NCBI GenBank assembly: GCA_019456165.1
Contig: VRUJ01000001.1
Location: 1 to 64,000 of the forward strand
Length of the DNA: 64,000 bases
Direction of reading: 5' to 3'
Source of the DNA: Chloroflexota bacterium
Lineage (GTDB): Bacteria > Chloroflexota > Anaerolineae > Anaerolineales > UBA11579
Positions 18,909 to 25,181 of the stretch are shown piece after piece. Both the position numbers and the translations under genes were made by a program. The notes under the pieces are model-generated. The model made no database searches, was not told the origin of the DNA, and saw only the letters and a program-made list of their open reading frames with translations. How positions within the stretch are numbered: the first letter of the stretch is position 1; each line of letters opens with the position of its first letter.

Positions 18909-19809
18909 ATGAGCGCTGGTATTACTAGAGATCTTGCAAAACATTGGTGGTTGGAATGTACAGCTTGCTCCGAAGCATCAATGACCACTCAGATGCGTGG
19001 GTTTGGAAAAGAGGAGCCAGTCTATGAGCAGGCTCTGCATTCATTCTCTGGGGGGTTTTTGCACCTTGGCCATGCCCTGCGGCCTACTAACTGGCGGGGC
19101 TCTTACTGCTGGTTTTATCGCGCGAGACCGTTTCGATAATGAAAAGATGAGAACCGCCGCGGCGCTTTACACAACAATCCAATTAACCAAAGCTCATCCC
19201 GAAACCACAGGCTCGGTTAATTGTATTGAGATCACTAATGTATCATTTCAAACTCTTGGAGGGCGATTACGCTATATACAAGAGGGAAAAGGCCGCATGT
19301 GCGGACGCTTGCATTTAAGATGGGCCCCAAAAGCGCATGATCTGATAGACAATGCACTTACTGAATTTAGCAAACATGAAAAGCCCAAAGGGTGTGAGAA
19401 CTGTGCAGTTCAGACCTTGAAAAAGACAGTTTCTGCTGCTGGTATGCGAGAAGAAGACACTGTTTTAGCAGCTGGGCTGGCAGGTGGAGTGGGCCTGCTT
19501 GGAAATGTGTGTGGTACTCTGGCCGCAGGTGTGTTCGCAATTTCTGTCAACCACTACCAGGGTCAGACTAATAATAAAAGGGATTCCAAAATTCGAGGTG
19601 CATTGCAGGAAATCTCTGGGCACGGACGTAAAGATTCGGGGACTCAATTGCGGCTTGCTTTTAAGGGCCAATTTGGCAGTGAATTATGCAATCAAATCAT
19701 TCAGCGTGAATTTCAGAGCATTGTCGATCACTCAGAGTTCATCGAGCAGGGCGGTTGTAAGGACGTGATTGATTTCACAGCCGAATGGGTTGAGCAATAT
19801 TTATCGTGA
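18909..19809 (+). pseudogene. C_GCAxxG_C_C-family redox-type protein, two tandem domains, interrupted by a 1-bp frameshift near 19074
   Basis: Frame from 18909: ECTACSEASMTTQMRGFGKEEPVYEQALHSFSGGF..HLGH; frame of ORF 18997-19809 resumes PCGLLTGGALTAGF; second domain ENCAVQTLKKTVSAAGM...GLAGGVGLLGNVCGTLAAGVFAI. Confidence 0.65.
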
Positions 19810-19869
19810 TATTATTAGGGATAAACTTCGAAATATGACATTACACCAATATCTTGTACCGATAATATC
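19808..19869. repeat. 62-bp hairpin repeat, copy 1
   Basis: GATATTAT ... ATAATATC stem with 46-nt interior closely matching copy 2 at 21191-21252. Confidence 0.75.
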
Positions 19870-20003
19870 CCTGTATGTAACTTTTTTCATTGTATGCCCC
19901 GAAAATGATTCGCATAGGAAGAACATAAGGGAAATATCGAATTAGAAATTTGCTTATTAAAAAGTTAAATATACAAACATTCAATATTTGAAGGGAATTA
20001 ATA

Positions 20004-20891
20004 ATGGGAGAAAACTCAATTCTACAGACAACTGGATACGAAAACGAAGAAAATGGGGGCTGTTCGTCATGGCTCATCTTCACCGCTAAAGGCTTTATAT
20101 TTCCATGTGGTAGTGCATCATTTTATAAAACAGCGTCAAAGAAATATCTGATTAGTGCAGTCGTATTCTTCTTACTATTTGCCATAGTAATTACATCTGT
20201 ATCAACACTTCAAGTATTTGTTGCTATGAGTGGAATAGGTGATGAAATTCAAGGGACGTATGACCGTGGCGAGTTTCCAACAATAGTTATTGAAGATGGA
20301 ATAGCCCAGGTTGATGGTCCGCAACCGCTTATATTCGAAGAGAATAGGAATATATTTGCTATTGATACTACGGGCGGGATGAAAGAAATAGACACTCGGT
20401 CATATAGCCAAGGCATTTTACTTACTCGTACGGAGATACATCTAGTAAACGAAGATGGCTATGAAGTGTTCCCATTAATTGATCTCAATGAAGGATTTGG
20501 TAATCCAATTGTGGTTGATAAAGCTCAAGCCCTTACCCTTTGGAAGACGATTTCACTTTGGACAACTATATTAGCCTTCCTAGCTATTTTGATATGGAAT
20601 TCGCTAATACGGTTTGTTTATATTATGCTGTTAGGTCTGGTCATTTGGGGCATTGTTTCTATAAAGCAAAAGGGGATCGCATTCAGTCCAATTTTGATTA
20701 CAGGCATTTATGCTAATGTTCCTGTAATATACCTAAGGTTTACTTTGAAGTTAGTGAATATTTCATTCTTTTGCTTGTATACAATACTTCTTGTTGCGAT
20801 ATGGGTATTAGTATTACGAGTAGTTTTAAGGAATACAGATGTAGATAAAGCTGATAACCCAGTCGCTATAAGTATAAGCCTTGAGGAATAA
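20004..20891 (+). CDS. DUF1189-like integral membrane protein
   Basis: N-terminal TM, extracytoplasmic domain with NIFAIDTTGGMKEID, then several TM helices. Confidence 0.65.
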   Translation: MGENSILQTTGYENEENGGCSSWLIFTAKGFIFPCGSASFYKTASKKYLISAVVFFLLFAIVITSVSTLQVFVAMSGIGDEIQGTYDRGEFPTIVIEDGIAQVDGPQPLIFEENRNIFAIDTTGGMKEIDTRSYSQGILLTRTEIHLVNEDGYEVFPLIDLNEGFGNPIVVDKAQALTLWKTISLWTTILAFLAILIWNSLIRFVYIMLLGLVIWGIVSIKQKGIAFSPILITGIYANVPVIYLRFTLKLVNISFFCLYTILLVAIWVLVLRVVLRNTDVDKADNPVAISISLEE

Positions 20892-21105: not shown

Positions 21106-21171
21106 CTAAGGTAAGACCAAAATTAGATCTCCCCAGGTGGTGGGATTAGATGAGAAGTGGGTGGGAATATA
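21106..21171 (-). pseudogene. 3'-end remnant of a CBM9-like lipoprotein gene
   Basis: Minus strand reads PYIPTHFSSNPTTWGDLILVLP*, matching the C-terminus STRFYSNPTTWGDLILVLP* of the gene at 23929-24942. Confidence 0.75.
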
Positions 21172-21189
21172 TGGTATAATCATTTATCT

Positions 21190-21253
21190 GGATATTCTGA
21201 GGGATAAACTTCGAAAAATGTCATAACACCACTATCTTGTGTCGAGAATATCC
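21190..21253. repeat. 62-64 bp hairpin repeat, copy 2
   Basis: GGATATTCT ... AGAATATCC perfect 9-bp stem; interior aligns gap-free to copy 1. Confidence 0.75.
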
Positions 21254-21384
21254 TAATATATAACATATTACATAACCTGTTTGTTAATTTTCCGCATATT
21301 ACTGACTGGTAAATGCACCGCAAATGGAAAATTGCTTATCAATCAGTTGGGCAGCCTATTTACCAATGCTAGTCAGTTATCTTA

Positions 21385-21420
21385 GTCTCGAAATAATTGT
21401 CTGGGCAATTATACCGAGAC
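21385..21420 (+). promoter_or_regulatory. Hairpin directly upstream of the peptide Shine-Dalgarno
   Basis: GTCTCG-aaa-TAATTG-tctggg-CAATTA-tac-CGAGAC: two perfect 6-bp stems separated by a symmetric internal loop. Confidence 0.7.
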
Positions 21421-21437
21421 AGAAAGGAGGTTTTACA

Positions 21438-21611
21438 ATGACTACTATTCCTACTAAAAACCAATATGCAGCATTGAAAGGCAGTCTAGATCTGTCAAGT
21501 GGAACGAAAGTGTGCTCAAAACCAAGTAGTTGTAAATGTGGTTTACCAAGTGTCTGTATTTGTAAAGCATGCAAACGTTCTGCTGAGCAGTCAGTCACAC
21601 AAGTACGGTAA
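21438..21611 (+). CDS. Putative cysteine-rich RiPP precursor peptide (57 aa)
   Basis: MTTIPTKNQYAALKGSLDLSSGTKVCSKPSSCKCGLPSVCICKACKRSAEQSVTQVR; AGAAAGGAGG SD 7 nt upstream of this ATG (ORF-track start 21324 lacks this); next gene is a radical SAM/SPASM maturase. Confidence 0.75.
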   Translation: MTTIPTKNQYAALKGSLDLSSGTKVCSKPSSCKCGLPSVCICKACKRSAEQSVTQVR

Positions 21612-21622
21612 AACTATCTGAA

Positions 21623-21670
21623 GACGACCAACTGATGGCCGAACCCAGAAAAGTCAACAGTATGGTCGTC
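21623..21670 (+). promoter_or_regulatory. Intercistronic hairpin between peptide and maturase genes
   Basis: GACGACCA (21623-21630) / TGGTCGTC (21663-21670), 8-bp perfect stem. Confidence 0.6.
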
Positions 21671-21698
21671 ACCAGAATTAGCATTTGGAGGAATCATA

Positions 21699-23060
21699 AT
21701 GCCAAAAACAATTTCGCCCTATACTCATATCATAAAAGTTAAAGATGATGTTTATGCTTTGTTTAATTCCTTATGGTTACGAGTTATTTTCGTTGACGGA
21801 GACCTTTTACCATTTATTTATGCTTTGATGCGAAACGAACCGCCCAAAAAATCTTTATCCCTTCTTGCAGCTAACTTTAGGGAGGAAGGACAAAGTCTAT
21901 TTCAACAAATGGAATTACAGAAATTCATGAGTCCAGAAAGTGATGAAATTAAACTTGATCAAATAAGGGAATTGTTAGACGAACAAAAAATCTCAATAAT
22001 GTACCTTATAATGACGAGCAACTGTAATCTTGCTTGCACGTATTGTTACTTATCCGAAGCTCTATACCAAAATAAATTAGAAGATATGGATATGGTTACG
22101 GATACAATCCGCAAGGCTATTGATATGTTCGCGGGGCTTGTAAAACGTGGGGAAGTTGAGAAGCCAGAGATAATTTTCTATGGTGGTGAGCCATTGCTCA
22201 ATATTGTTGCATTGGAATTTGCCTTAAAGTATGCTTCTACTACTATCCCTAATTGCAGTTTTACAATGAATACTAATGGTACTCTAGTTGATGAACCTTC
22301 AGCAAAATTATTGAAACGCTTTGATGTTGAGGTTGGTTTGTCTATAGATGGGCCTGAGAATGTTCATGATAAATTACGTATTGATAGGGGCGGAAAAGGT
22401 ACATTTTCACGGGCAATCACTGGTTATAAAAAGTTGAAGGAAAACGGTGTGAATGTAGGTATATCTTGCACAATCACACCAGCTAATGTAGGTCATTTGG
22501 CAGAAGTAACAACATGGCTAATAAATGATTTGGGTATAGAATCATTAGGATTCAATTTAATGATTGGAGAAGAGGCAGATTCCGGAATTGTGGATGATTA
22601 CACCAATAGTGCGGCAAAAGCTCTCATGGATAGTTTCGAAATTGCAAAGGAGGCCGGTGTATACGAAGAAAGGGTTATGCGTAGAGTTAATGCGCTGTCA
22701 GATGGACAAGTTTCCTTAAATGATTGTGGAGGATGTGGTCAACAAGTTGTGATCACACCAGATAATCAAATAGGAGTATGTCAGGCTTTCATGAATACAG
22801 GAGAAAATTTTTTCCCGTTCAATGAAGTAGAAAATCCATCAAACCATGAATTGTGGAAAAAATGGAGAAAGCGTTCCCCTTTCAATATCCCTGAATGCCT
22901 AGATTGCGAGGCTTTAGGAATGTGTGGGGGCGGCTGTCCATATAACAGTCTCATTAGATATGGCGATTTCATGGCTCCCGATTTAGTGCATTGCGCCCAC
23001 GTTAAAGAGACTCTACACTTTTTGCTGGGTGATCTGTGGGAATTGTCGTTGGAAGCTTAG
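21699..23060 (+). CDS. Radical SAM/SPASM peptide maturase
   Basis: MTSNCNLACTYCYL (CxxxCxxC), FYGGEPLL, NTNGTL, SPASM cysteines CGGCGQQVVITPDNQIGVC and CLDCEALGMCGGGCPYN...HCAH; GGAGG SD upstream. Confidence 0.92.
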   Translation: MPKTISPYTHIIKVKDDVYALFNSLWLRVIFVDGDLLPFIYALMRNEPPKKSLSLLAANFREEGQSLFQQMELQKFMSPESDEIKLDQIRELLDEQKISIMYLIMTSNCNLACTYCYLSEALYQNKLEDMDMVTDTIRKAIDMFAGLVKRGEVEKPEIIFYGGEPLLNIVALEFALKYASTTIPNCSFTMNTNGTLVDEPSAKLLKRFDVEVGLSIDGPENVHDKLRIDRGGKGTFSRAITGYKKLKENGVNVGISCTITPANVGHLAEVTTWLINDLGIESLGFNLMIGEEADSGIVDDYTNSAAKALMDSFEIAKEAGVYEERVMRRVNALSDGQVSLNDCGGCGQQVVITPDNQIGVCQAFMNTGENFFPFNEVENPSNHELWKKWRKRSPFNIPECLDCEALGMCGGGCPYNSLIRYGDFMAPDLVHCAHVKETLHFLLGDLWELSLEA

Positions 23061-23157: not shown

Positions 23158-23790
23158 GTGAGAAATCGTAACTTTTGGAATTCGATATCCTTATTTGAGT
23201 CTGGTCTTTCTGCTGTTGAATGGATGTGGAGAATTACCACCTTCATATTTATTGGTGGTAGCGGTGCGGCGACAGCTTTTTTGGCAAAAGCTGATCCCCA
23301 ATTAAAGAAACTTGGACCTATATATTGGGTTTTTGTTGGTCTGGTGACAATGCTTGTTGTTACTGTAATATTTTATCTCATCAAATCTGCAATTCTAAAT
23401 CAAGCGAAAGCGGATTTTAATCGTGCTATGGCTAGCCCAAGAACATTGATTAATCCTTTGTTGGATAGCTTTAAAGATGCAATTATTTCGGTCGAAGACC
23501 TAAGGCTTCCAATTTCTCAATTGCATGAAAATAAGCATTTCAAGAGATGTAAGTTTGTAGGCCCTGCGGCAATAGGGATTATTGATGGAACCTTTGTGCA
23601 AACCGACTTTGTGGAATGCGGAGACGTCATTGCATTACCTGAGAAAGTCTCTCTTGTTGGTATAGTTGTGTTGAAAAACTGCACTGTTGAAGAATGCCAG
23701 TTTATTAGAACGACCTTATTCACAGACCAAAACACTGCAAAAGGATTTGCTAACATTCCTGGTGCACAAGTTAAAGGAATAAGCAAATAA
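23158..23790 (+). CDS. Membrane protein with two predicted TM helices and a cytoplasmic domain, unknown function
   Basis: GTG at 23158 preceded by AGGAGATAGC; two hydrophobic segments then a globular region. ORF-track ATG at 23107 has no clear SD. Confidence 0.65.
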   Translation: MRNRNFWNSISLFESGLSAVEWMWRITTFIFIGGSGAATAFLAKADPQLKKLGPIYWVFVGLVTMLVVTVIFYLIKSAILNQAKADFNRAMASPRTLINPLLDSFKDAIISVEDLRLPISQLHENKHFKRCKFVGPAAIGIIDGTFVQTDFVECGDVIALPEKVSLVGIVVLKNCTVEECQFIRTTLFTDQNTAKGFANIPGAQVKGISK

Positions 23791-23928: not shown

Positions 23929-24942
23929 TTAAGGCAGTACCAATATTAGATCTCCCCAGGTGGTGGGATTAGAATAGAAGCGTGTGGAGACGTTTGAGAT
24001 CATAGTCTGCTGGTCGTTTAAACCCATCGCATCGTTATCCGAGACTGAAAAGGCAAAGCCTAAGTGCTGATCTACTGCCGGGAACACACCGAACAGACTC
24101 CACGGCAGGGCTGCCTCCAGGATGTAGCCATCCGGCGTTCCAATCACAGCGATATTGACCACAGGCAGCAAACCTCTTTTCGATGTCGGATACCACATAT
24201 ACGCCTGGGGGCTTCCTCCGGGTGAATACAGGCCGGGGGAGATGCCCAATTGGTGGTCGTCAAAGGTCATGCGTGTATCGTAGAAATCTGAGGAAACGCT
24301 AGCATCCAGCACGATCTCAAGGCTGTCTCCGAGGTATAAGTAAGCCCCAGAAGTATTTTGGACATAAAGGTTATCGGTAACCACAACACCAATGTAAAGG
24401 TTAGTTGCATCCCAACCTATCTTAAAATCGGCCGTTAGATCAGCAGGGCCAGAATAAAAACCCGGGCCGAAGACCACACTTGAGGCTGTATAACCTACAA
24501 TAGGCCACTCTCCCAGATTGCCATCAATAATAGGAGCAGGGCTCACATAAACCGCGGCCACGCTGGCAGCGCTGCGGAAAAACGGCCCGCCGTTCGGGTC
24601 CGGGGTTGTAGTAGGATTTTGGGGTGGCGATTCATAACCTTGGGTCGAGGAGGGAGCAAAGGCAGGCGTGGAAGAAGGCGCTGCGGTGGCTGCGATCACA
24701 TCAGTGGGTGGGATTGTTTGAGTGATCTCAATACCCACTGTTGTTGCTGTCGCCGAAATGGTAGGCGTTTGGCTGGCATCGTTGGACACAACGGTTCCAA
24801 AAATACTCGTGAGGTAAAAGTTAGGGGTCGGGGAAAGGTCAGATGTGGGTGCAGGATCTTGGGTGCCCCCGGCAAATCTTTCACAAGCAAGTGTTGCAAA
24901 AATAACTAAGATAACCCATATAATCAGTTTTCGCCTACGCAT
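23929..24942 (-). CDS. Lipoprotein with carbohydrate-binding family 9-like domain
   Basis: Lipobox ATLACER, Thr/Pro linker, PIIDGNLGEWP...FKIGWDATNLYIGVVVTDN...GDSLEIVLDA...YILEAALPWSLFG. Confidence 0.8.
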   Translation of the reverse strand: MRRRKLIIWVILVIFATLACERFAGGTQDPAPTSDLSPTPNFYLTSIFGTVVSNDASQTPTISATATTVGIEITQTIPPTDVIAATAAPSSTPAFAPSSTQGYESPPQNPTTTPDPNGGPFFRSAASVAAVYVSPAPIIDGNLGEWPIVGYTASSVVFGPGFYSGPADLTADFKIGWDATNLYIGVVVTDNLYVQNTSGAYLYLGDSLEIVLDASVSSDFYDTRMTFDDHQLGISPGLYSPGGSPQAYMWYPTSKRGLLPVVNIAVIGTPDGYILEAALPWSLFGVFPAVDQHLGFAFSVSDNDAMGLNDQQTMISNVSTRFYSNPTTWGDLILVLP

Positions 24943-25084: not shown

Positions 25085-25181
25085 GGGAGTGGATGAGTCC
25101 CGGTGGGTTCCCCGGTCTTCAAAATCGGTGGCGGGTCGCGTTGCGGGCCGCGGTGGGTTCGACTCCCATGCACTCCCGCCA
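25085..25181 (+). tRNA. selC: tRNA-Sec (selenocysteine, anticodon TCA), CCA encoded
   Basis: GGGAGTG...CACTCCCGCCA acceptor, anticodon stem-loop CCGGT-CTTCAAA-ATCGG, long GC-rich variable arm, T-arm GTGGGTTCGACTCCCAT. Confidence 0.92.

Follow-up and report, generated by a model that had tools for sequence, protein, structure and literature searches.

This locus raises the question of whether a short cysteine-rich open reading frame and the radical SAM gene that follows it are a RiPP precursor and its maturase and, if so, to which family they belong. The two genes lie in the first 64,000 nucleotides of contig VRUJ01000001.1 of a Chloroflexota bacterium, the stretch that is called the window here. 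There is good support for identifying the two as a Cys-rich RiPP precursor and the radical SAM/SPASM enzyme that matures it, and the locus is of a kind already known: a divergent relative of FibroRumin, a system catalogued in NCBIfam by a peptide model (TIGR04135) and a maturase model (TIGR04136).

The precursor peptide and its leader

The precursor gene (21438..21611, forward strand) encodes a peptide of 57 amino acids (MTTIPTKNQYAALKGSLDLSSGTKVCSKPSSCKCGLPSVCICKACKRSAEQSVTQVR). Residues 1-25, which are free of cysteine and include the motif QYAALKGSL, form the leader, and residues 26-46 form a six-cysteine core with the pattern C-x5-C-x-C-x5-C-x-C-x2-C. The Shine-Dalgarno sequence AGAAAGGAGG (21421..21430, forward strand) lies 7 nt 5' of the ATG. 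Beyond this start the frame remains open as far back as an ATG at 21324, but it is the start at 21438 that matches the position of the Shine-Dalgarno sequence. The strong ribosome-binding site, Cys-free N-terminal part and cysteine pattern given in the preliminary description were thus all confirmed from the sequence. At least six cysteines within 22 residues were found in 3 of the 568 window open reading frames of 30 to 120 amino acids.

Precursors from 20 relatives, aligned without the window peptide, have in most of their leaders a common motif, [YF]xx[LIMV]xGx[ILV], with instances such as YKKLFGLI, YRKILGSL and FASIRGNL. A matrix of 13 positions derived from these 20 precursors, with the window peptide left out, placed the window peptide (TKNQYAALKGSLD) first among 569 window open reading frames, with a score of 15.5 versus 10.7 for the next, and 1 in 20,000 shuffled leaders scored equally well. 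When the matrix was limited to classical FibroRumin leaders, the window peptide again ranked 1 of 569 (4 of 20,000 shuffles equal); it ranked 4th with a matrix of ten Patescibacteria precursors and 35th with one of five, a small and diverse set. The lower rank under the ten-precursor Patescibacteria matrix indicates that the match owes more to the classical leaders. The window peptide shares with FibroRumin precursors a leader motif that is followed by a Cys-rich core, and the earlier reading of its Cys-free N-terminal half as a leader is borne out by a motif taken from relatives only. Collectively, the cysteine density and the rank of the leader motif indicate that this reading frame is not a product of chance. 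A search of NCBIfam, TIGR04135 included, returned no family for the peptide at an E-value of 10 or better. No close homologue of the peptide was found, and it is solely through the leader motif that conservation of its frame is supported.

Family assignment of the maturase

The maturase gene (21699..23060, forward strand) starts 87 nt downstream of the peptide gene and encodes a FibroRumin-like radical SAM/SPASM protein of 453 amino acids with an N-terminal RRE-like domain. Its radical SAM motif, CxxxCxxC, reads CNLACTYC (C109/C113/C116), and seven SPASM cysteines follow (C343, C361, C400, C403, C409, C413 and C432). None of these cysteines varied across 25 aligned sequences, the window and 24 relatives, in agreement with the cluster motif and full SPASM set first noted for this protein. 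The protein matches Pfam Radical_SAM and combines the features of radical SAM/SPASM peptide maturases: CxxxCxxC, a seven-cysteine SPASM set and an RRE-like N-terminus.

The best NCBIfam match was TIGR04136, the FibroRumin radical SAM peptide maturase, at 261.5 bits over nearly the full length, which is below the cut-off of 400 bits for that family. The next-best neighbors were the thioether-forming PapB (156.6 bits), QHNDH (136) and SCIFF (116) maturases. Membership of SCIFF was rejected (116 bits against a TIGR03974 cut-off of 425, and a peptide without an NCBIfam match), as was membership of PapB (156.6 bits against an NF047865 cut-off of 340) and of CcpM, Clo7bot and QHNDH, whose scores fell far below their cut-offs. 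The nearest named class is FibroRumin (TIGR04135/TIGR04136), to which the preliminary description did not refer, rather than SCIFF, CcpM or classical sactipeptides.

An AlphaFold model of the maturase (pLDDT 88.8, pTM 0.88) places three strands followed by helices (beta-beta-beta-alpha) at residues 9-94, ahead of a radical SAM barrel and a SPASM domain. The best solved structures identified by Foldseek were TigE (8vpo, E 1.6e-21) and CteB (5why/5wgg, TMq 0.75-0.79), with nearly the whole chain aligned. Model and structural matches together predict an enzyme that resembles CteB and TigE and has an N-terminal domain of the RRE type. The SCIFF pair CteA-CteB (TIGR03974; 5wgg) resembles the window pair in its RRE, radical SAM and SPASM fold, its six-cysteine precursor and its adjoining genes, but the two maturases are 20% identical in the structural alignment and the window precursor falls outside every family model. 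PapB-type ranthipeptide maturases, although thioether-forming and the second-best NCBIfam match, align without the N-terminal domain. TigE gives the best Foldseek E-value in an alignment of nearly full length, but it is 18% identical to the window maturase.

Scanning genomes with an alignment of two sequences recovered nine FibroRumin-like loci (L013-L021), the closest being in a Falkowbacteria MAG (L013, 37% identity); a single-sequence scan of genome contigs gave no match. Together with Campylobacter plasmid NZ_CP012551.1 these make ten loci, in 8 of which a Cys-rich open reading frame of 50-63 amino acids adjoins the maturase gene. The annotated FibroRumin operon on the plasmid encodes two TIGR04135 peptides, a UvrA-like ATPase and a maturase that scores 707 bits against TIGR04136 and is about 30% identical to the window maturase. 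Profiles run against 381 genomes from the phylum of the Falkowbacteria MAG and 383 from its class, with strong matches defined by an E-value of 1e-85 or better, identified 20 distinct strong Patescibacteria loci (L013, L100-L103 and L108-L122), 12 of them with an adjacent Cys-rich peptide. Four further Patescibacteria enzymes (L104-L107, E 1e-62 to 1e-75) are without obvious Cys-rich partners and probably differ in function. A Cys-rich peptide is thus the usual neighbor of maturases homologous to this one, whether from Campylobacter, Eubacterium, Cloacimonadota, Spirochaetes, Lachnospiraceae and Patescibacteria. Consistent lack of such a neighbor had been proposed at the outset as grounds for abandoning the RiPP reading, and these counts were favorable to it. 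The exact core spacing fared less well: it is present here as described but was found in the window only, and its variation among relatives indicates that it does not define the family. At strict thresholds, searches of 399 sampled genomes of the phylum of the window and 200 of its order detected the maturase in no other genome, apart from one weak partial match of 29%. The nearest relatives of the window cassette belong to ultra-small Patescibacteria.

An IQ-TREE PMSF tree built from 27 maturases set the window and every FibroRumin-like row apart, as one group, from the PeaB-like enzymes and other SPASM enzymes of Bacillota (100/99). The classical FibroRumin rows formed a starred clade (99/97) with the window outside it, and the window maturase paired with that of Falkowbacteria L013 (92/84, not starred). 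The Patescibacteria maturases did not form one clade, and one of them, L108, exceeded the TIGR04136 cut-off (407 bits) though its peptide fails TIGR04135. The FibroRumin and Patescibacteria groups therefore intergrade, and the window is accordingly termed a divergent FibroRumin-like variant rather than a FibroRumin member. With FibroRumin it shares full-length maturase homology, a peptide-then-maturase gene order, the leader Yxx[LM]xGx[IL] and a Cys-rich core of similar length. FibroRumin loci differ in their cysteine spacing and in having two or three precursors and an adjacent UvrA-like ATPase, whereas the window has one precursor and no ATPase gene. The Patescibacteria loci have the closest maturases (up to 36-37% identity), a single short Cys-rich precursor and an intergenic hairpin; most also have a linked zincin-like gene, which the window lacks.

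Genomic surroundings of the pair

Two strong hairpins, a possible 5' regulatory element, lie just 5' of the Shine-Dalgarno sequence of the peptide gene (21301..21418, forward strand); the computed folding energy for 21295-21437 is -36.4 kcal/mol (z -2.5), a value equalled by 3 of 200 shuffles. Another hairpin separates the peptide and maturase genes (21612..21698, forward strand; z -3.9, equalled by 0 of 200 shuffles), and relatives have one at the same intergenic place (z -4.35 in L013, -2.4 in L100 and -1.8 in L101). Intergenic hairpins of this kind are consistent with an output of precursor exceeding that of enzyme.

The GC content is about 38% in the cassette region versus about 46% in its surroundings. 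A 58-nt repeat (28 nt identical) at 21107-21164 and 23930-23987 flanks the peptide gene, the maturase gene and a gene for a two-TM protein. The GC dip, the flanking repeats and the absence from genomes of relatives suggest that the peptide-maturase region is a horizontally acquired cassette. An integron-cassette origin of this repeat-flanked island is not supported: a search of the genome found no integron integrase over the cut-off and only partial tyrosine-recombinase matches. A separate 92-nt intergenic repeat at 19799-19890 and 21182-21273 stands ahead of the genes at 20004 and 21438, and its third copy is on another contig (G000:C42:29888-29990), again 5' of a gene. The orientation relative to the gene is the same for all three copies, as would fit a mobile or promoter-bearing element. 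In an Rfam search of 18.4-25.3 kb, tRNA-Sec alone exceeded its gathering score. This tRNA-Sec gene (25085-25181, detected by ARAGORN and Rfam) is about 5 kb from a gene (18997-19809) for a protein of the C_GCAxxG_C_C family, which includes known selenoprotein members.

A hypothetical two-TM membrane protein is encoded 98 nt downstream of the maturase gene (23158..23790, forward strand). It matched no family over the cut-off, no plasmid homologue was found for it, and its link to the peptide system is uncertain. No protease or exporter gene adjoins the window pair. In several classical FibroRumin loci a short UvrA-like ATPase gene follows the maturase gene (L006:9379-11481, L014:6537-8672 and L015:6371-8496). 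In 17 of the 20 Patescibacteria loci (L100-L103, L013 and L110-L121), homologous zincin-like metallopeptidase-like genes, most with HExxH, adjoin the maturase gene in varying orientation. An alignment of five copies showed no variation in the H and E of HExxH or in a Glu further along, while two of the five have no second His at that spacing. The zincin-like protein is a candidate leader peptidase. There is no zincin-like gene within the window, and a search of its own genome, run without a positive control, found none.

Proposed maturation and alternative readings

Co-occurrence across phyla, the conserved leader motif, the RRE-like domain and the conserved cluster ligands together underlie the assignment as a RiPP pair, as the preliminary description had proposed. 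We consider it probable (about 0.7) that the locus is a minimal, divergent FibroRumin-type system in which leader capture precedes radical installation of Cys thioethers. The model draws on CteB, whose N-terminal RRE binds its leader and one of whose SPASM clusters has an open site toward the active site; SCIFF maturases, CteB among them, make Cys-Thr thioethers (PMC8326336). By analogy, with the 57-residue precursor produced in excess over the maturase through its strong Shine-Dalgarno sequence and the intergenic hairpin, the RRE-like domain would hold the leader motif. The radical SAM cluster would generate a 5'-deoxyadenosyl radical, and hydrogen would be abstracted from acceptor residues in the core. 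Core cysteine thiolates, probably ligated to the auxiliary SPASM cluster, would then close ranthi- or sactipeptide-like thioether crosslinks, after which a protease encoded elsewhere would remove the leader. The product may serve as a secreted or signaling peptide.

SPASM enzymes of similar fold perform several chemistries, and rather than thioethers the maturase might form, for example, a C-C crosslink, a cyclopropane or an epimer in this peptide, leaving the cysteines for disulfides or metal. TigE, which gave the best Foldseek E-value, belongs to a family tied to cyclopropylglycine formation, and its substrate is not known to be Cys-rich. A related enzyme, TvgB, offers a comparison (PMC9062424). 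This equally good structural match to an enzyme of other chemistry, together with the failure to reach either curated cut-off, counts against a thioether-forming FibroRumin-type system, as do the want of a close peptide homologue, the fourth rank under Patescibacteria leaders and the lack of a neighboring protease or exporter gene. Nevertheless, dense cysteines, and little else, are conserved in the cores of the precursors of all identified relatives, and the next-best NCBIfam neighbors form thioethers; modification of another kind is thus rather unlikely. That the peptide is left unmodified, as a metallothionein-like or chance reading frame, while the enzyme acts on another target, is very improbable: six cysteines in 21 residues could bind metal and cysteine spacing is not conserved among relatives, but the first-ranked leader motif, the strong Shine-Dalgarno sequence, the tight coupling of the genes and the recurrence of such reading frames beside this maturase family argue otherwise.

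A different objection concerns class rather than chemistry. The pairing with Falkowbacteria outside the starred FibroRumin clade, and the zincin-like neighbor of most Patescibacteria loci, would fit a Cys-rich RiPP class distinct from FibroRumin and paired elsewhere with a metallopeptidase-like protein. Its zincin-like partner is missing from the window and was not found in its genome, the Patescibacteria rows do not group as a single clade, and L108 crosses the FibroRumin cut-off, all of which leave a distinct class doubtful. We hold at a similarly low level the fuller proposal of a separate, undescribed class with variable multi-loop cysteine topologies, an HExxH leader peptidase dedicated to it in Patescibacteria, and exchange between Chloroflexota and ultra-small bacteria.

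The literature searched contained no characterized FibroRumin product and no paper naming FibroRumin or TIGR04136. With one precursor, one enzyme and a simple six-cysteine core, the window pair, as a divergent FibroRumin-like system, is a handy test case for FibroRumin chemistry. Its relatives extend the FibroRumin-like family into Patescibacteria, where a linked metallopeptidase-like gene is a candidate for removing the leader. They also hint that bacteria with reduced genomes may have peptide factors.
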